A stretch of 64,000 nucleotides of DNA from Sphingobium yanoikuyae. Lineage in GTDB: Bacteria; Pseudomonadota; Alphaproteobacteria; Sphingomonadales; Sphingomonadaceae. Under the pieces are notes generated by a model. The model made no database searches. It was not told where the DNA came from and saw nothing but the letters and a program-made list of their open reading frames with translations. Below, one piece after another: positions 55,225 through 63,761 of the stretch. The DNA is taken from assembly GCF_013001025.1 (NCBI RefSeq), contig NZ_CP053021.1:2942001-3006000 (forward strand), in the 5' to 3' direction. Position numbers and translations under genes: made by a program. How positions within the stretch are numbered: position 1 is the stretch's first letter; the number at the start of each line of letters is the position of its first letter.

Positions 55225-55974
55225 TCAATCCTCGGCGGTCTTGCCCCCCATGTCGTCATCGCCATCGTCGTCGGCGGCACCATGGTCGACCAGATTGTCG
55301 GAAATGCGGCCACGACTCAGGCGATCGACATCGTCCATGATCTCGTCCAGCACCGCCGTATCGGTCGTTTCCTGCGTCCGGCGCGAGGGCAGCGCGCCCT
55401 CCTCCAATATCTGTTCGAGCGCGGCGCGACCGCGGGCCACGCGGCTCTTGATCGTGCCGACCGCGACGCCGCAGATTTCCGCCGCTTCCTCATAGGCAAA
55501 GCCACCCGCGCCGACGAGGATCAATGCCTCGCGCTGGGGCTGGGGCAATTGCAGCAGGGCGCGCTGCATGTCGCTGAGTTCGACATGCTTGTCCTGCCCC
55601 GCGGGCGCGGCGAGCAGCCGGTCAGCGGTCAGGTCGTCCCAATCGCCGCGGAAACGCGAACGGCGCATCTGCGAGAGATAATGATTGCGCAGGATGATGA
55701 AGGTCCAGGCGCGCATGTTGGTGCCGGCCTGGAAGCGGGCACGGGCGGCCCAGGCCTTGAGCAGGGTTTCCTGGACAAGATCGTCGGCGGTGTCGCGATT
55801 GCCCGACAGGGATCGCCCGAAGGCGCGCAGATGCGGAATGACCGCGGCCAGTTCACGCTTGAACTCGCCGTCCGACAGTGCCTCGCGCGGCGCCTGGTTC
55901 AGCCCTTCATCCACGGCAGCAACCCCCGTTTCGACTGTCGCCCTCGCTGCATGAACCGAAGTCGTCAAAGCCAT
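55225..55974 (-). CDS. ecfG: General stress response sigma factor EcfG
   Basis: A 249-residue ECF sigma factor. Region 2 is around AFGRSLSGNRDTADDLVQETLLKAW and region 4 around YEEAAEICGVAVGTIKSRVARGR. The proximity of phyR and nepR identifies it as EcfG, the sigma factor that binds GGAAC-type promoters. It is longer than typical EcfG (about 180 aa): about 35 extra residues at the N-terminus and an acidic tail of about 40 residues ending DDDGDDDMGGKTAED. The role of these extensions is unknown. Confidence 0.88.
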   Translation of the reverse strand: MALTTSVHAARATVETGVAAVDEGLNQAPREALSDGEFKRELAAVIPHLRAFGRSLSGNRDTADDLVQETLLKAWAARARFQAGTNMRAWTFIILRNHYLSQMRRSRFRGDWDDLTADRLLAAPAGQDKHVELSDMQRALLQLPQPQREALILVGAGGFAYEEAAEICGVAVGTIKSRVARGRAALEQILEEGALPSRRTQETTDTAVLDEIMDDVDRLSRGRISDNLVDHGAADDDGDDDMGGKTAED

Positions 55975-56056
55975 ATATGCATCCGCACCCTAGTTCGATT
56001 ACCGCCAAAGGCCAATTCCCAAGATACCCCTAGAAACGCCCATTTTTTCCACTGCC

Positions 56057-56188
56057 TTACCGCCAGAGAACCAGCAGCATCACGATCACGGCCAGTGCGA
56101 GCCAAATGCCCAGCACATAGCGAACGACGTGCGGCGTAGCGCCGCCCCGTGCGTCCTGCGTGGAGATATGCTGCTCCTCGTCGGCCAT
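56057..56188 (-). CDS. 43-residue single-helix membrane protein between ecfG and phyR
   Basis: A 44-codon frame with ATG at 56188 and TAA at 56057. A hydrophilic start MADEEQHISTQDAR is followed by a membrane helix (YVLGIWLALAVIVMLLVLW) near the end. GGAG lies seven bases before the ATG. The position inside the stress locus, between phyR and ecfG on the same strand, suggests co-expression. It is a good candidate for an overlooked membrane small protein. Confidence 0.65.
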   Translation of the reverse strand: MADEEQHISTQDARGGATPHVVRYVLGIWLALAVIVMLLVLWR

Positions 56189-56280
56189 CGGCCCTCTCCG
56201 AATCGTTACGCATATTTAACGCGTTAAAGCCGGGAGGGTTCCGCCGACCGTCACAAAGGATCGGCCGGCGGGAAGACAGG

Positions 56281-57075
56281 TCAGGCCGGGGCGGTCGCCT
56301 CGTCGAAGAAAAGCGCCTGCGAGATCGCGGCCTTGACCGTCGAGCGCTGGAACGGCTTGGTGATGAGGAAGGTCGGCTCGGGCCGCTCGCCGGTCAGCAG
56401 CCGTTCGGGGAAGGCGGTGATGAAGATCACCGGCACCGAGAATTCGGCAAGAATGTCCTTCACCGCGTCGATGCCGCTCGAATCATCGGCCAACTGGATA
56501 TCGGCCAGCACCAGGCCGGGCCGTTCCGCCAGCGCCTCGCGCACCGCATCCTCACGGGTGACGGCGATGGCGGTCACATCATGACCAAGGTCGCGCACGA
56601 TCGTCTCGATATCCATCGCGATAATTGGCTCATCCTCGATGATCAGAACCTTGGCACGGGTCTGCGCCTCGATCTCCTCCAGCGCCTCCTCGACCAGAGC
56701 TTCGACATCGGCGGTGTCGAGGCCGATCAGATAGCCGGCATCTTCCGTCGTGAAGCCTTCGAGCGCGGTCAGCAGCAGCGCCTGGCGCGGCAGCGGGGTC
56801 AGCCGGGCCAATCGGGCATGGGCGATCGCCTCCTGCCCGATCGAACCCGAGAAGCCGGGCTCGTCATCCAGGTGCGAGGACGACCAGATCGCATGGAAGG
56901 TCTTGTAAAGGCCGAGGCGAGGATCGACACCGCTGGGAAACTCCTCCGGCGCGGCAACGATCGCTTCGAGCGTGGCGCGGACATAGGCATCGCCATGAGT
57001 CTGGCTGCCCGTCAGCGCGCGCGCATAGCGCCGCAAGAAAGGAAGATGGGGGTGCAGTTGCTGTCCAAGCGACAT
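56281..57075 (-). CDS. phyR: PhyR, sigma-mimic response regulator of the general stress response
   Basis: A 264-residue regulator. The N-terminal sigma-like part (about residues 1-130) resembles EcfG and would bind NepR. The C-terminal receiver has IEDEPIIAMD and the phospho-acceptor D192 (LADIQL). Phosphorylated PhyR sequesters NepR and frees EcfG. I chose ATG 57075 (MSLGQQLHPHLPFL) because it begins the conserved region; the frame is open 15 codons upstream. It is divergent from nepR. Confidence 0.95.
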   Translation of the reverse strand: MSLGQQLHPHLPFLRRYARALTGSQTHGDAYVRATLEAIVAAPEEFPSGVDPRLGLYKTFHAIWSSSHLDDEPGFSGSIGQEAIAHARLARLTPLPRQALLLTALEGFTTEDAGYLIGLDTADVEALVEEALEEIEAQTRAKVLIIEDEPIIAMDIETIVRDLGHDVTAIAVTREDAVREALAERPGLVLADIQLADDSSGIDAVKDILAEFSVPVIFITAFPERLLTGERPEPTFLITKPFQRSTVKAAISQALFFDEATAPA

Positions 57076-57216
57076 CGGTAAGTCTTCTCCCTGCCCTGTC
57101 GGGCCTGTTGTCCGAAACATCGGCTCCGCCGGAGGATGGGATGACGATGCCGCGCTGGCAAGCCCCTCTCCCCCTGCCGCCGAATGACCGACGGTGCAAA
57201 AAATGCTTCGAATGCC

Positions 57217-57241
57217 GGAACCATCGACACCAAGATTTGTT
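57217..57241 (+). promoter_or_regulatory. Candidate EcfG promoter of nepR, GGAAC-N16-TGTT
   Basis: GGAAC at 57217-57221 is followed after 16 bases by TGTT at 57238-57241. This is close to the known EcfG consensus GGAAC-N16/17-CGTT, with one mismatch. It faces nepR, 167 bases upstream of the chosen start. Confidence 0.55.
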
Positions 57242-57407
57242 TCACTCTCGTTCGGTTTTTTCGACGGTAACGGCTTTTTGGTGAAATTTGCCCAGCTTGG
57301 TGAATTGACGCCGCTATGCGTTGCGGCGAAATAGCGGACAGGCTGGCGTCACGGATTTAGCTTCAAAGGGGCTGATTTTGGTTTCTTCAACAACGGAACG
57401 GGACAGG

Positions 57408-57602
57408 ATGGGAGGGGATATTGACGTCGGCACGACCATCCGCGACCGCGACATGAAGACTGCGCCCGAACCACGCAAGCGCCGCACGGCCGCGAAAAAG
57501 GACGAGGCCCAGGTGTCCCAGGTGCTCAAGTCCGTCTATCAGCGCACGGTCGACGAAGATATTCCCGCCGAAATGCTGGACCTGCTCAGCAAACTGGACT
57601 GA
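57408..57602 (+). CDS. nepR: Anti-sigma factor NepR
   Basis: A 64-residue protein ending in the conserved helix pair region VLKSVYQRTVDEDIPAEML, the hallmark of NepR. NepR binds EcfG and is displaced by phosphorylated PhyR. The frame extends upstream to a TTG at 57321, but ATG 57408 gives a normal-sized protein. The basic stretch KRRTAAKK precedes the conserved region. phyP-like kinase gene follows 59 bp downstream. Confidence 0.93.
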   Translation: MGGDIDVGTTIRDRDMKTAPEPRKRRTAAKKDEAQVSQVLKSVYQRTVDEDIPAEMLDLLSKLD

Positions 57603-57661
57603 TCAACGCTGGTCGGGGCGGCATTTCCCTGCCGCCCGTACAAGGACCCTCTCGATCCCCC

Positions 57662-59215
57662 ATGACCATGTTCGGCGTCTATCTCCGGTCCACCGGCGTC
57701 AAGATGTTCCTCATCCTGACGCTCGCGCTGCTGCCGCTGGGGCTGATCGCACTGGTGGCGTCGCTGCAGGCGATCCGCACCGCCGACCTGGAGAAGGAAG
57801 CGCTGCTGCGTGTCGCCGTGACCCAGAGCGCGCGCAAGCTGACCGCCGATCTCAACGCCGATCGCACCGCGCTGGGCCTGACCGTCAACGCGTTGGCCGA
57901 TGGCAAGGCGGACGGCGAAATCTGCAACCGCCTCTCCTTCTTCCTTACCGCGCAGGACCGCAGCGGCATCCGATTCTATATCTATGACCGATCGGGCAAG
58001 AAGCTGTGCGGATCGGCCACGCCGGAGCCGGCCGGCATTCCGCCCACGCGCCGCTTCATCGGTCCGCGTGTCGAACTACTGTCGTCCGGCGACTTCCTGC
58101 TGTCGCGCACCCACAGCCATGACAATCGCGTCGCGGCGCTGGCCTATTATTCGCGGCCGCATCTCGAAAGCGTCGCCGATCCGGCAACCGCGCTGCAGAA
58201 CCGGCAACTGAGCCTGCGCCAGGGCGAGCGGCAGATGATCGTCAGCCGCCCCGGCAGTCGGATCGACGGCCATAGCAGCAGCCTGTCCGCCCGGCTCGAC
58301 CCGCCCGACATATTGCTGACCATGACGGTGCGCGAGCCGCCGGCGACGATCGCCCGATTGCTGTCGCTGTTCCTGCCGCTGGTGATGTGGTTCGCGGCCG
58401 CTGCGATCGGCTGGTTCGTGGTCAATCGGCTGCTGATCCGCCCGCTGGTGCTGCTGCGGCGCCAGGTTGCCGCCTATCAGCCTGGCGAAGTGCTGGAGCC
58501 GCTGCGGCGCATCCGCACGCCCGCGCACGAGATCAGCGACCTGGGCGACACATTCCGCGAGATCAGCGAGGATGTCGCCACCCATGAGGCGGAAATGGCC
58601 GCCGCGCTCGACACCCAGCGCAAGCTGACGCGCGAGGTGCATCATCGGGTCAAGAACAACCTGCAGATCATCGCCAGCCTGATCAGCCTGCACGCCCGGT
58701 CGGCGCATGAGCCCGAAGCAGTTTCGGCCTATGGGTCGATCCAGCGCCGGGTCGACGCCCTGTCGGTCGTCCATCGCAACCATTTTGCCGAGTTGGAGGA
58801 AAATCGCGGCGTCGGCGTGCGTCCGCTGATCAGCGAATTGTCCGCCAGCCTGCGCGGCACCGCCCCGCATGAGGCGCGCCGTTTCGGCATCCAGATCGAC
58901 AGCGACGATGATCTGCACATCAGCCAGGATGTCGCCGTTCCGGTCGCCTTCCTGGTGACCGAACTGGTCGAACTGGCGATGCTGTCCGATCCGCGCGCGA
59001 CGATGCGGATTTCGGTGCATCTGGAGGCCGATCGGAACGACCGCGCCCTGTTGCAGATGGCGTCGCCCGCGCTGCGCGCCGGGCCGGAAGTGACTTTATT
59101 GCTGAACGAACGTTATGGCCGGGTGCTGACCGGCCTGTCGCGCCAGCTCCGCTCCCCGCTCGATCATGATGCCGAAGCGGGCTGCTACAGCATCGCGATC
59201 AGCGTCATTCCCTGA
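57662..59215 (+). CDS. HisKA_2 sensor kinase-like protein with a degenerate ATPase domain (PhyP-like)
   Basis: A 517-residue membrane protein. Two hydrophobic helices (about residues 15-37 and 235-260) flank a periplasmic domain; a HAMP-like linker and a HisKA_2 domain follow, with H327/H328 in REVHHRVKNNLQ. The C-terminal ATPase domain lacks a recognisable N-box (TELVELAML instead of NALKHAF-type) and lacks DxGxG. It may therefore not bind ATP. In Sphingomonas melonis a kinase-like PhyP in the phyR locus acts as a negative regulator or phosphatase of PhyR; this gene has the same place and type. Confidence 0.8.
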   Translation: MTMFGVYLRSTGVKMFLILTLALLPLGLIALVASLQAIRTADLEKEALLRVAVTQSARKLTADLNADRTALGLTVNALADGKADGEICNRLSFFLTAQDRSGIRFYIYDRSGKKLCGSATPEPAGIPPTRRFIGPRVELLSSGDFLLSRTHSHDNRVAALAYYSRPHLESVADPATALQNRQLSLRQGERQMIVSRPGSRIDGHSSSLSARLDPPDILLTMTVREPPATIARLLSLFLPLVMWFAAAAIGWFVVNRLLIRPLVLLRRQVAAYQPGEVLEPLRRIRTPAHEISDLGDTFREISEDVATHEAEMAAALDTQRKLTREVHHRVKNNLQIIASLISLHARSAHEPEAVSAYGSIQRRVDALSVVHRNHFAELEENRGVGVRPLISELSASLRGTAPHEARRFGIQIDSDDDLHISQDVAVPVAFLVTELVELAMLSDPRATMRISVHLEADRNDRALLQMASPALRAGPEVTLLLNERYGRVLTGLSRQLRSPLDHDAEAGCYSIAISVIP

Positions 59216-60830: not shown

Positions 60831-61766
60831 ATGATTGATTCAGGACGCTTTAGTGCAGCTGACGAGCGCGCGACCGAGGTCGAAGCGGCATTCGAGATCG
60901 AAAGCTTTGGCGAGGATGCCGTAACGTCATCCCCCGCCCCTTCCCAACTGTTCGACCTCGGCCAGATCGACGTGCAGTGGGAGGCCGAATCCGAAACGCT
61001 CTGGGCGTTCATGACGCCGGCCAATCGCCCCAATTTCAGCATGACCATGCTGCGCGACGTCCGCTACTGGTATGCCGAGACCAAGCGGCTGTTCGATGCC
61101 GGCCAGTTGCCGGTCAAATATATGGTGGCCGGCTCCCGCTTCCCCGGCGTGTTCAACCTGGGCGGCGACCTCGAACTGTTCGCCGGCTGCATCGAACGCG
61201 GCGACCTGCCCGGCCTGGTCCAATATGGCCATGCCTGCATCGACGTCGTCCATCGCACCTGGCGCAACGGCGACATGCCGGTGGTGTCGATCGCGCTGGC
61301 GCAGGGCGATGCGCTGGGCGGCGGGTTCGAGGCGCTGCTCTGTTTCGACGTGGTGATCGCCGAGCGCAGCGCCCGTTTCGGCCTGCCCGAAATGCTGTTC
61401 GGCCTGTTCCCCGGCATGGGCGCCTATTCGATCCTGTCGCGCAAGCTGGGCCGGCTGGCGGCCGAGCGCATGATCCTGTCGGGCAAGGTCTTCACCGCGG
61501 AAGAGATGTTCGACATGGGCATCGTCCATACGCTGGTCGAGGATGGCGAGGGGGAAGCGGCGGTGCGCGATTTCGTCACCCGCAATCGCCCGCACCATGC
61601 CGGCCATGTCGGCGTCTATGAAGCCGGGCGCCGGGTCGATCCGCTGCACCATGACGAACTGAAGGATATTGTCGAGAATTGGGCCGCTTCGGCGCTCAAG
61701 ACCGACCTAAAGGATATCCGCATGATGCGCCGGCTGGCGTCGGCCCAGACGCGCCTGACCAAATAG
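60831..61766 (+). CDS. RpfF-like crotonase, putative DSF-type signal synthase
   Basis: A 311-residue crotonase-fold protein. It matches the RpfF group that makes cis-2-unsaturated fatty acid signals (DSF family) from acyl-ACP. Family features are the FNLGGDLELF segment, GDALGGGFEALL and FGLPEMLFGLFPGMGA. The two catalytic glutamates of RpfF correspond to E167 and E187, exactly 20 residues apart as in Xanthomonas RpfF (E141/E161). The N-terminal ~60 residues are not conserved. It converges with a GGDEF-EAL gene 3 bp away. A general enoyl-CoA hydratase is less likely. Confidence 0.82.
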   Translation: MIDSGRFSAADERATEVEAAFEIESFGEDAVTSSPAPSQLFDLGQIDVQWEAESETLWAFMTPANRPNFSMTMLRDVRYWYAETKRLFDAGQLPVKYMVAGSRFPGVFNLGGDLELFAGCIERGDLPGLVQYGHACIDVVHRTWRNGDMPVVSIALAQGDALGGGFEALLCFDVVIAERSARFGLPEMLFGLFPGMGAYSILSRKLGRLAAERMILSGKVFTAEEMFDMGIVHTLVEDGEGEAAVRDFVTRNRPHHAGHVGVYEAGRRVDPLHHDELKDIVENWAASALKTDLKDIRMMRRLASAQTRLTK

Positions 61767-61769
61767 GGA

Positions 61770-63761
61770 TCAGGCCAGGCGGCGCTGGCGGATCAGCGCC
61801 GCCATGTCATGGATATCGGCCCTGTTGCGGTTGAGCAGGGCCTGCAACTCGCCGATCGGGACCGGTCGGCTGAGGACGAAGCCCTGGACGTTGGTGAAGC
61901 CGGTTTCGCGGGCGTAGCGCAACTGTTCCTCGGTCTCGATCCCCTCCGCCACCGTCTCCACCTCCAGCGCGCGGGCCAGATAGGCGACGGACTGGGCAAT
62001 CGCCCGGTCGCGGGGATTTTCACCGACGCCGCGCATGAAGCTCTGATCGACCTTGATCGTGTCGAACTCATGGGTGCGCAGCGCGCCCAGCGAGGAATAG
62101 CCGGTGCCGAAATCGTCGAGCGCGAGGCGCAGGCCGATGCGGCGCAATTCGCTGAGGATCAGATGGGTCCGGCGGTCATCTTCCAGGAAGATGGATTCGG
62201 TGACTTCCAGCTCCAGCCGGCGCGCCTTGAGCCCCGACTGGAGCAAAGCGGAAATGACGGCGCGCGGCAGGCCGTCGGTCTTGATGAGCGCGGGCGAGAT
62301 GTTGACCGCGACCCGGATATCCTCGTCCCAGCCCATCGCGTCACGGCACGCCTGAGCCAGCGCCCAGTTGGTCATCGGCTCGATCAGGGCCGAGCTTTCG
62401 GCGATCGGGATGAACTCGGCCGGGGAAATCCAGCCCAGTTCCGGATGCTGCCAGCGCATCAGCGCCTCGCAGATGGTGATCCGGCCGGTCTCGGTATCGA
62501 AGATCGGCTGATAATGAAGTTGCAGCTCGCCATTGGCGAGCGCGCTGCGTAGCCCGGTCTCCAGCTCATAGGTGCGGTTCTGCCGCTCCTTCATGGTCCA
62601 GTCGAACTGGGCATGGCGGTTCCGCCCGGCATGCTTGGCCTTGTAGAGCGCAAGGTCGGCATGCTGCAGCAGTTCGTCGCCATCGGCGCCATCTTCGGGC
62701 GCGACGGCAATGCCCATCGAGGCGGAGATGGTCAGGTGATGGCCGCCGACTTCGAAATCGCCGGCAAGAATGCGGGTGATGTCGCCCGCGATCACTTCCG
62801 CCTGGATGCGGCTGACGCCGGGGCAGATCAGCACGAACTCGTCGCCGCCGAAACGCGCGACATGGCCGCGCCGGTCGAGCGCACGGGTCAGCCGTTCGGC
62901 CACCTGGCACAGCAGCTGGTCGCCGACGATATGGCCCAGCGTGTCGTTGATTTCCTTGAACCGGTCGAGGTCCATCCACAGGACGGCGGTCTGATCCGCA
63001 TCGGAAATGCGATTGTCGAACAGGTCGCGCAGCCGCATCTGCATCGCCATGCGGTTTTCCACCCCGGTCAGGCTGTCATAGCGGGCCAGCCGCTCGAACT
63101 TGATCGCGAGGTTGCTCTTCTCCTGCTTGCCCTGCATCGCTTCCAGCACGATGCGGTGGGTGGTCTTGGTGATTTCCGCCATGGCGAAGATCATCAGGAA
63201 GCAGAGCACGCCAAGGACGACATAGCCGACGCCACCAGCGATCAGCAGGCCGATCGAGGTCGGCAGCATGGTGAAGCAGGTCTGGCCGACCGCGACATGG
63301 ACCCGGCCGGCATTGCGCCCGGAAATGCCGCCCGCATAGGAAGCGACCATGCCGACGGCCAGGACATGCAGGGTCGCATTCTGGCTGATCGTCAGCGTCG
63401 CGAGCGATTGCAGCCCGAGCAGCGCGGCATAGATCCAGGCCCCCATTTCATAGGCGATTCCCCAGATCGGACGCGCCGGACCATCCTGATGCGCCAGCGC
63501 GCGCTGGAAATAGACGGCCGAAATGGAGCGACTGATTCCCACGATCAGGACCAACGCGGCGATGATGTGCATGGTCAGGACATGGGCCTGCCAGGCGATC
63601 ACGAGACTGAGTGAACCTCCTGAAATCGCGCCAGAAAGCAGCGATGCCGGGGAGGCATAAAGCGCTTTGACGAGGCTATCCTGCACCTCAGCATTCTGCT
63701 GGGTACGGGGCGCAAAGCGCGCGCGCAGGACTGCGCACAGATGGCGGACGAGGCGTGACAC
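61770..63761 (-). CDS. Membrane-bound GGDEF-EAL protein (c-di-GMP cyclase/phosphodiesterase)
   Basis: A 663-residue protein. About six hydrophobic helices (residues 35-215) form an N-terminal sensor. The GGDEF domain has an intact RFGGDEF active site, with no RxxD inhibitory site where expected. The EAL domain has ICEALMRWQHP and DDFGTGYSS, so catalysis of c-di-GMP breakdown is possible. The start is GTG 63761. It is tail-to-tail with the RpfF-like gene, with no visible terminator between them, so antisense overlap of transcripts is likely. Confidence 0.92.
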   Translation of the reverse strand: MSRLVRHLCAVLRARFAPRTQQNAEVQDSLVKALYASPASLLSGAISGGSLSLVIAWQAHVLTMHIIAALVLIVGISRSISAVYFQRALAHQDGPARPIWGIAYEMGAWIYAALLGLQSLATLTISQNATLHVLAVGMVASYAGGISGRNAGRVHVAVGQTCFTMLPTSIGLLIAGGVGYVVLGVLCFLMIFAMAEITKTTHRIVLEAMQGKQEKSNLAIKFERLARYDSLTGVENRMAMQMRLRDLFDNRISDADQTAVLWMDLDRFKEINDTLGHIVGDQLLCQVAERLTRALDRRGHVARFGGDEFVLICPGVSRIQAEVIAGDITRILAGDFEVGGHHLTISASMGIAVAPEDGADGDELLQHADLALYKAKHAGRNRHAQFDWTMKERQNRTYELETGLRSALANGELQLHYQPIFDTETGRITICEALMRWQHPELGWISPAEFIPIAESSALIEPMTNWALAQACRDAMGWDEDIRVAVNISPALIKTDGLPRAVISALLQSGLKARRLELEVTESIFLEDDRRTHLILSELRRIGLRLALDDFGTGYSSLGALRTHEFDTIKVDQSFMRGVGENPRDRAIAQSVAYLARALEVETVAEGIETEEQLRYARETGFTNVQGFVLSRPVPIGELQALLNRNRADIHDMAALIRQRRLA

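Follow-up and report, generated by a model that had tools for sequence, protein, structure and literature searches.

An rpfF-family gene convergent with a membrane GGDEF-EAL gene in Sphingobium yanoikuyae: a candidate DSF-type signalling unit

The window considered here is a stretch of 64,000 nucleotides from Sphingobium yanoikuyae (contig NZ_CP053021.1, positions 2,942,001 to 3,006,000), which is part of a four-contig genome of 5.94 Mb. Between positions 60831 and 63761 of the window, an rpfF-like gene, of the type encoding synthases of diffusible signal factor (DSF), lies tail to tail with a gene for a membrane protein carrying GGDEF and EAL domains, the domains of cyclic di-GMP (c-di-GMP) turnover; this second protein is referred to below as the partner. 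Both open reading frames were confirmed, and purifying selection acts on each of the two genes (dN/dS of 0.04-0.25 against three Sphingobium orthologues). The genome contains 41 ECH_1 and 11 EAL matches, so that a lone crotonase or a lone EAL gene would say little. Throughout, L-numbers designate fetched loci and G-numbers genomes (G000 being this one), the genome sample consists of species representatives, and adjacency was scored solely in fetched loci.

The synthase and its membrane partner

Judged by its sequence, the crotonase is a member of the RpfF/PRK08788 family and not an ordinary enoyl-CoA hydratase. Its score on NF006452 (PRK08788) is 366 bits, over the curated cut-off of 177, and the comparators score 410 bits (Xanthomonas-type, L198), 411 bits and 396 bits (RpfR-linked, L189 and L195). 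On NF053515, the equivalog model for Xanthomonas-type RpfF, it scores 168.5 bits, under a cut-off of 550 that is reached in only three of 398 phylum genomes; the RpfF proteins of L189 and L195, at about 181 bits, are likewise under this cut-off, and the genes convergent with theirs encode bona fide RpfR (1200 and 1052 bits on PRK10060). The best solved relatives are 6dgn (RpfF), 5fus, 7zq7 and 3m6m (RpfF), and the crotonase of S. scionense is 97% identical to that of the window. All 11 of the pocket and catalytic residues of RpfF named in PMC9864630 and PMC9040811 (G85, G86, L136, G137, G138, E141, E161, G169, M170, W258 and L276 in Xanthomonas numbering) are identical in the window protein and the Xanthomonas-type protein of L198. 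Some databases carry the label "DSF synthase" on these proteins, presumably through automatic annotation.

An earlier reading made from the sequence alone (the sequence-only reading) had taken the exact spacing of two catalytic glutamates, E167 and E187, as the sign of an RpfF. The two residues align with Xanthomonas E141 and E161 as claimed, and the spacing is right, but it is not diagnostic alone: according to a review, the two glutamates of RpfF have their counterparts in enoyl-CoA hydratase (PMC9864630), and among the 20 other crotonases of the genome that were aligned, Glu occupies the first column in five and the second in four. The spacing was therefore dropped as proof. P194 and G195, which are invariant in the RpfF-like rows, were dropped as diagnostic residues in the same way and say little on the hydratase question, since they occur in 10 and 6 of the 20. 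An ordinary hydratase of beta-oxidation, a type of enzyme that has the crotonase fold and the two catalytic glutamates in common with RpfF, is nevertheless scarcely credible. F190 is found in 117/117 RpfF-like rows and M196 in 113/117, against one of the 20 other crotonases in each case, and W284 is present in none of them (18 have a gap and two have Ala). In a tree of 90 of the 137 collected rows (82 RpfF-like rows and 8 of the 20 fetched crotonases of the genome), the RpfF-like rows separate from the hydratases with 100/100 support, and the window crotonase falls on the RpfF side. Long-branch warnings in this tree concern L007, L307, L197, L202, L001 and L008, together with the joining of L202 to the RpfR-linked rows, and leave the window protein unaffected. 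Within the RpfF-like rows, the partner-type proteins, including those from genera in which the two genes are unlinked, form one clade (31 rows, 100/100), the four RpfC-type sphingomonad RpfF proteins form a separate one (98/91), and the RpfR-linked RpfF proteins lie on a branch different from that of the window. The RpfF of L204, from another family, is nested in the partner clade, and the partner is present there too.

The partner had been read from the sequence as a convergent six-helix membrane protein with intact GGDEF and EAL motifs, and the open reading frames, the AlphaFold2 models and the motifs bear this out. The predicted membrane helices span residues 38-59, 62-91, 98-125, 129-149 and 154-175, with a sixth starting at 178 (pLDDT of 79.8 for the full protein and 85.9 for the membrane domain alone). 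The other residues checked in the EAL domain (N487, E519, DDFGTG, K570 and E606) are all kept, and the canonical I-site RxxD is not at its usual position before GGDEF in the window protein. Pfam shows GGDEF and EAL only, with no histidine kinase, receiver or Hpt domain. The membrane domain of the window protein has no Pfam family at E values up to 5 and no Foldseek match at E <= 0.001; a weak profile match to CDP-archaeol synthase against solved structures (E 0.0086) was not used. The conserved columns, counted from L30, are L30, L34, Y35, P38, S40, L41, G44, A45, G48, R78, Y104, G107, A108, G116, Y142, R149-R153, A157, G159, Q160, P167 and I197. The six-helix domain is undescribed and replaces the FI-PAS region of RpfR.

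Table 1. Coordinates of the two genes and of their main features in the window
Feature	Position	Strand	Details
rpfF-like DSF-synthase gene	60831..61766	+	ATG 60831, stop TAG 61764-61766, 311 aa; PRK08788/NF006452 family
Codon of catalytic Glu E167 (Xanthomonas E141)	61329..61331	+	Alignment, 117/117 RpfF-like rows
Codon of catalytic Glu E187 (Xanthomonas E161)	61389..61391	+	Alignment, 116/117 RpfF-like rows
Codon of pocket Trp W284 (Xanthomonas W258)	61680..61682	+	116/117 RpfF-like rows
3-bp spacer (GGA) between the two convergent stop codons	61767..61769	.	
Membrane GGDEF-EAL partner gene	61770..63761	-	GTG 63761, stop TGA 61770-61772, 663 aa
EAL domain, motif at residues 432-434	61863..62552	-	PF00563, 229 bits; motif in 103/105 orthologues
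GGDEF domain, motif at residues 305-309	62616..63086	-	PF00990, 147.5 bits; motif in 103/105 orthologues
Six-helix membrane domain (residues 38-203)	63153..63650	-	No Pfam family; AlphaFold2 models, conserved columns

Gene neighbourhoods and co-occurrence

The partner lies downstream of rpfF on the opposite strand in all 27 named loci, of which 25 have Sphingobium in their titles, one is from Novosphingobium and one from a Sphingomonadales assembly (the two genes are 186 bp apart in L068 and some 1.2 kb apart in L078), and it is convergent in all 29 further loci of the same genus, the species of which overlap with the 27. The pair is, thus, not a matter of chance. It is also kept in most close relatives, conservation having been one of the checks proposed for it: among 94 genomes of the genus, 76 have both genes, one has RpfF only (G211, 60% complete), seven have the partner only and ten have neither (Fisher test, 2e-8). 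Outside the genus, 40 loci were fetched from the 56 other RpfF-plus genomes of the family. The partner adjoins rpfF in ten of these loci, two with the queuine tRNA-ribosyltransferase (TGT) gene that lies upstream of the pair in the window, six without it, and two (L124 and L127) that start near a contig end. An RpfC-like hybrid kinase is found beside rpfF in four loci (L150 and L152-L154), and the remaining 26 have neither sensor adjacent. These 26 had been considered orphan synthases, wrongly, as the partner is located elsewhere in all 26 genomes. In one group of genera with an unlinked partner (L125-L149 and others), rpfF often lies by genes for asparagine synthase, pirin, ZapE and an iron-sulfur protein. 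L120 and L121 have a second GGDEF-EAL gene behind the membrane partner and in the same orientation, with a PAS domain in L120.

The family survey covered 149 genomes, with thresholds of E <= 1e-30 for RpfF and E <= 1e-5 for the membrane domain. RpfF was found in 57 genomes and the membrane domain in 61; both are present in 51, RpfF only in 6, the partner only in 10 and neither in 82 (Fisher test, 6.6e-23). Collapsed by genus, the corresponding counts are 34, 4, 5 and 53 of 96 (2.8e-16), all these tests ignoring shared ancestry. The RpfF-only genomes are G051, G068, G084, G089, G128 and G135. The RpfC sensor, searched for with a profile, is present in six of the 149 genomes, namely the first five of the RpfF-only genomes, which are 99-100% complete, plus G042; the sixth, G135, is an assembly that is 77% complete. 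With the RpfC sensor in the five partner-less genomes, 56 of the 57 genomes with RpfF have one or the other sensor but not both. RpfF and the partner are both absent from the sphingomonad genome G042, whose RpfC-type sensor lies in an open frame of 561 aa (L363).

Could the two genes merely have been inherited together, the crotonase being an accessory one, the c-di-GMP enzyme having no relation to it, and a stable locus holding them side by side? The flanks lend this some plausibility, as the HWE kinase and TGT are also conserved within the genus, and the partner occurs in genomes that lack RpfF. The explanation appears very improbable all the same, given that the pair is adjacent in eight other-genus loci without TGT (six in which the fetched stretch covers the upstream flank, and the two at contig ends), that the two genes co-occur unlinked in 26 genomes, that RpfC substitutes for the partner in the complete-genome exceptions, and that the drop in constraint following rpfF loss, described below, is specific to one domain. 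In the window, TGT lies on the minus strand and is preceded by genes for an HWE kinase, NepR, PhyR and a sigma factor. These form a general stress response locus adjoining TGT at 55228-59212, comprising an ECF-type sigma factor (-), PhyR (-), NepR (+) and an HWE/HisKA_2 kinase (+). In the named loci L062-L088, the HWE kinase and TGT keep their synteny with the rpfF pair.

A sensor gene convergent with rpfF is common elsewhere. Among 20 comparators, drawn from the 62 matching genomes of a phylum search, RpfR is convergent with rpfF in nine (L188-L196), with gene ends within about 60 bp in eight of the nine and a gap of 1.5 kb in L188; an RpfC-sensor kinase is present in seven, L197 has a kinase without the RpfC sensor, and L202 has no adjacent candidate. 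L204 has a membrane GGDEF-EAL protein of this type with an extra PAS domain, convergent with rpfF. In L203, a membrane GGDEF-EAL protein with the six-helix domain and a PAS domain directly follows RpfF on the same strand; this RpfF lies outside the partner clade, and the locus is a second association of the six-helix GGDEF-EAL type with RpfF. Of 22 alphaproteobacterial loci fetched after a search of the class, 16 show an RpfC-sensor kinase convergent with rpfF; among the remaining six, three (L274, L291 and L308) end soon past rpfF and three (L277, L293 and L307) have no such kinase. A convergent sensor beside rpfF is thus a common layout, in which the sphingomonad partner takes the place of the sensor. 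RpfF was found in 24 of 385 class genomes, and loci of the RpfF/RpfC type look widespread in Alphaproteobacteria; in L276 and L278-L290, the protein encoded after the RpfC-sensor kinase shows both receiver and kinase-like matches. An RpfF-like gene is also frequent in family f38, which lies outside the class and whose genomes are mostly small and fragmented (for example L164-L166, L168, L174 and L180); G481 has two.

The membrane domain after loss of rpfF

Six rpfF-less Sphingobium genomes (L294-L299) keep the kinase, TGT and the partner, with no rpfF between the last two, and are possible receivers without a synthase. On a tree of the catalytic domains of the partner, the presence of rpfF requires 10 changes, with rpfF present at the root and several forks weak, which suggests that rpfF was lost about ten times. 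The effect on the membrane domain was followed in 105 orthologues, comprising 89 rpfF-plus rows and 16 rpfF-minus rows (from the 17 partner-only genomes, leaving out G218, which is 78% complete), through 25 membrane-domain columns conserved in the rpfF-plus rows. The latter retain 23-25 of these columns and 11 of the 16 rpfF-minus rows retain 13-20, while the conserved GGDEF-EAL columns are retained at 0.93-1.00 in all 16. As columns chosen on rpfF-plus rows favour those rows, a control was made with each lineage held out and its close relatives removed. The rpfF-plus rows then have a minimum of 0.76 and a 5th percentile of 0.82, the same 11 rpfF-minus rows range over 0.52-0.75 and the other five over 0.91-0.96.

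In a regression of identities, four Sphingobium rpfF-minus rows, all from one clade of four genomes, have z values of -8.8 to -11.1, and two others are ordinary (-0.7 and 0.5); of the ten rpfF-minus rows from the family, six have z values of -2.4 to -4.1 and four of -1.2 to 1.3, the lowest rpfF-plus value being -2.2. The ratio of membrane to catalytic rates on terminal branches has a median of 4.4 in the 16 rpfF-minus rows and 1.8 in 70 rpfF-plus rows (p 5e-5; 92 of the 105 rows after removal of near-duplicates, with rpfF-plus rows limited to catalytic branches > 0.02), but this test is not leaned on, given the non-independence of the rows and the equally high rates of several rpfF-plus rows. 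The loss of constraint seen in many lineages after rpfF loss is specific to the membrane domain, and our reading is that much of the constraint on this domain seems to depend on RpfF in the cell. This pattern is the strongest evidence tying the domain, and not just the gene, to RpfF or its product.

A candidate DSF-type signalling unit

The sequence-only reading had proposed a new arrangement of fatty-acid signalling, and in this it was partly right. The tail-to-tail layout is not new, since the published RpfF/RpfR pair, known from Burkholderia among others, is already convergent (PMC6361424, PMC4504480); the novelty lies in the partner, and more precisely in its membrane domain. The sphingomonad pair resembles the RpfF/RpfR of Burkholderia and Cronobacter in combining an RpfF-family synthase with a convergent GGDEF-EAL partner, but RpfR is a soluble protein with FI and PAS domains, whereas the sphingomonad partner is a membrane protein. 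On the RpfR model (PRK10060, NF007474), the partner reaches 350 bits against a cut-off of 782 and aligns over GGDEF-EAL only. No RpfR over cut-off was found in this genome, in agreement with the earlier reading. For c-di-GMP networks, a 2022 review gives RpfR as the DSF receptor backed by direct evidence (PMC8846402).

The RpfF/RpfC/RpfG system of Xanthomonas, which has a c-di-GMP output (PMC4504480), similarly has an RpfF-family synthase, a membrane sensor and a convergent gene order (L198); its sensing differs in that the sphingomonad partner has no phosphorelay domains and a membrane domain unrelated by profile comparison. In line with the earlier claim, no RpfC/RpfG pair was found here: the RpfC-sensor profile has no match in this genome at E <= 1e-5 among the 24 of 28 first-look candidates scored, and neither of two HD-GYP-type (HD_5) matches is near rpfF. 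The RpfC-like loci within the same bacterial family (L150 and L152-L154) also have rpfF tail to tail with a membrane sensor and a GGDEF-EAL output, but they form a two-protein relay with an RpfF of another clade. In these four loci, a receiver-domain GGDEF-EAL gene (REC-PAS-GGDEF-EAL by Pfam in L152) follows the hybrid kinase, where Xanthomonas has the HD-GYP protein RpfG. Another of the closest known systems is ImcA of Pseudomonas aeruginosa (PDB 8wcn), a GGDEF protein with six transmembrane helices.

We consider it fairly probable, on comparative grounds, that rpfF and the partner form a DSF-type signalling unit in which the membrane GGDEF-EAL protein plays the role of RpfC/RpfG or of RpfR. 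Enzymes of the RpfF family convert 3-hydroxyacyl-ACP, by dehydration and thioester cleavage, into a free cis-2 acid (PMC4504480). From its family and residues, the sphingomonad protein would be expected to take 3-hydroxyacyl-ACP from fatty-acid synthesis, to dehydrate it to the cis-2-enoyl form and to free the cis-2-unsaturated fatty acid by cleaving the thioester. The six-helix domain of the partner would sense this fatty acid at the inner membrane or within it, and a conformational change relayed via the linker helix would alter c-di-GMP turnover. The likeliest output, a guess by analogy with RpfR, would be activation of the EAL phosphodiesterase. A single membrane polypeptide would then replace RpfC plus RpfG, or soluble RpfR. 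A stronger proposal is about evenly balanced and is made tentatively: the six-helix domain may constitute a new class of membrane receptor for cis-2-unsaturated fatty acids controlling GGDEF-EAL, in a third core DSF system, with a sensor often retuned after rpfF loss, perhaps toward other fatty acids or the signals of neighbours. The conserved polar residues R78, Y104, R149, N150, R153 and Q160 are, as a guess, candidates for gripping the carboxylate. The domain may be a sensor module of wider use that was recruited here, as it occurs without an RpfF match and fused to a kinase. The fusion, in L316 (G636), is between a histidine kinase and a relative of the six-helix domain, and the same genome also contains RpfF together with an RpfC-like kinase.

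The partner might instead be a docking regulator that binds and restrains RpfF, the conservation of its N-terminal and membrane parts reflecting protein contact rather than signal binding. The FI domain of RpfR binds and inhibits RpfF (PMC6361424), RpfC binds RpfF via REC (PMC13220807), and the rpfF-less rows have many of their changed residues at positions 30-48, before and in helix 1. Changed residues are also found in and between helices 3 to 5, however (Y104, G107, A108, R149, N150 and G159), and no PAS-like domain was detected in the partner; docking as the whole explanation is unlikely, although the two roles can coexist. Somewhat less likely still is a function in lipid homeostasis, with the RpfF-like enzyme acting as an acyl-ACP thioesterase that supplies free fatty acids and the partner sensing the lipid state of its own membrane. 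RpfF enzymes cleave many acyl-ACPs (PMC6361424), and the sensor is predicted to be membrane-embedded, but the known c-di-GMP-linked relatives produce diffusible signals (PMC4504480, PMC4698668), and the alternative partner in sister genera carries an RpfC-type sensor.

Several observations weigh against the proposed signalling unit. The membrane domain has no detectable homology to the RpfC sensor (rejected at an hhalign probability of 0.6%), and Pfam finds no PAS domain in the partner. The partner occurs without RpfF in 17 genomes (10/149 in the family and 7/94 in the genus), and three of the five alphaproteobacterial carriers of the membrane domain outside the family have no RpfF match. Absence calls rest on top-ranked first-look candidates, 15 or 24 being scored per genome for RpfF, and shared ancestry may bear on the Fisher values. 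Five of the 16 rpfF-minus rows retain 23-25 of the 25 membrane columns, the margin of the held-out control is narrow (0.76 for the lowest rpfF-plus row and 0.75 for the highest of the 11 rpfF-minus rows), and fast membrane domains are also found in rpfF-plus members of the unlinked clade (L334, L333 and L327).

No report of DSF signalling in sphingomonads was found among the matches listed in the open-licence literature searched; one match, PMC9040811, mentions the sphingomonad family solely in the title of a reference. Sphingomonads are common in soil, in water and on plants. If the proposed signalling unit is real, a quorum signal and its receptor are predicted for a large group of non-model bacteria, the membrane domain of the partner is a candidate new sensor of fatty acids for which conserved residues can be named, and the lineages that have naturally lost rpfF could be used to probe the purpose of that domain.

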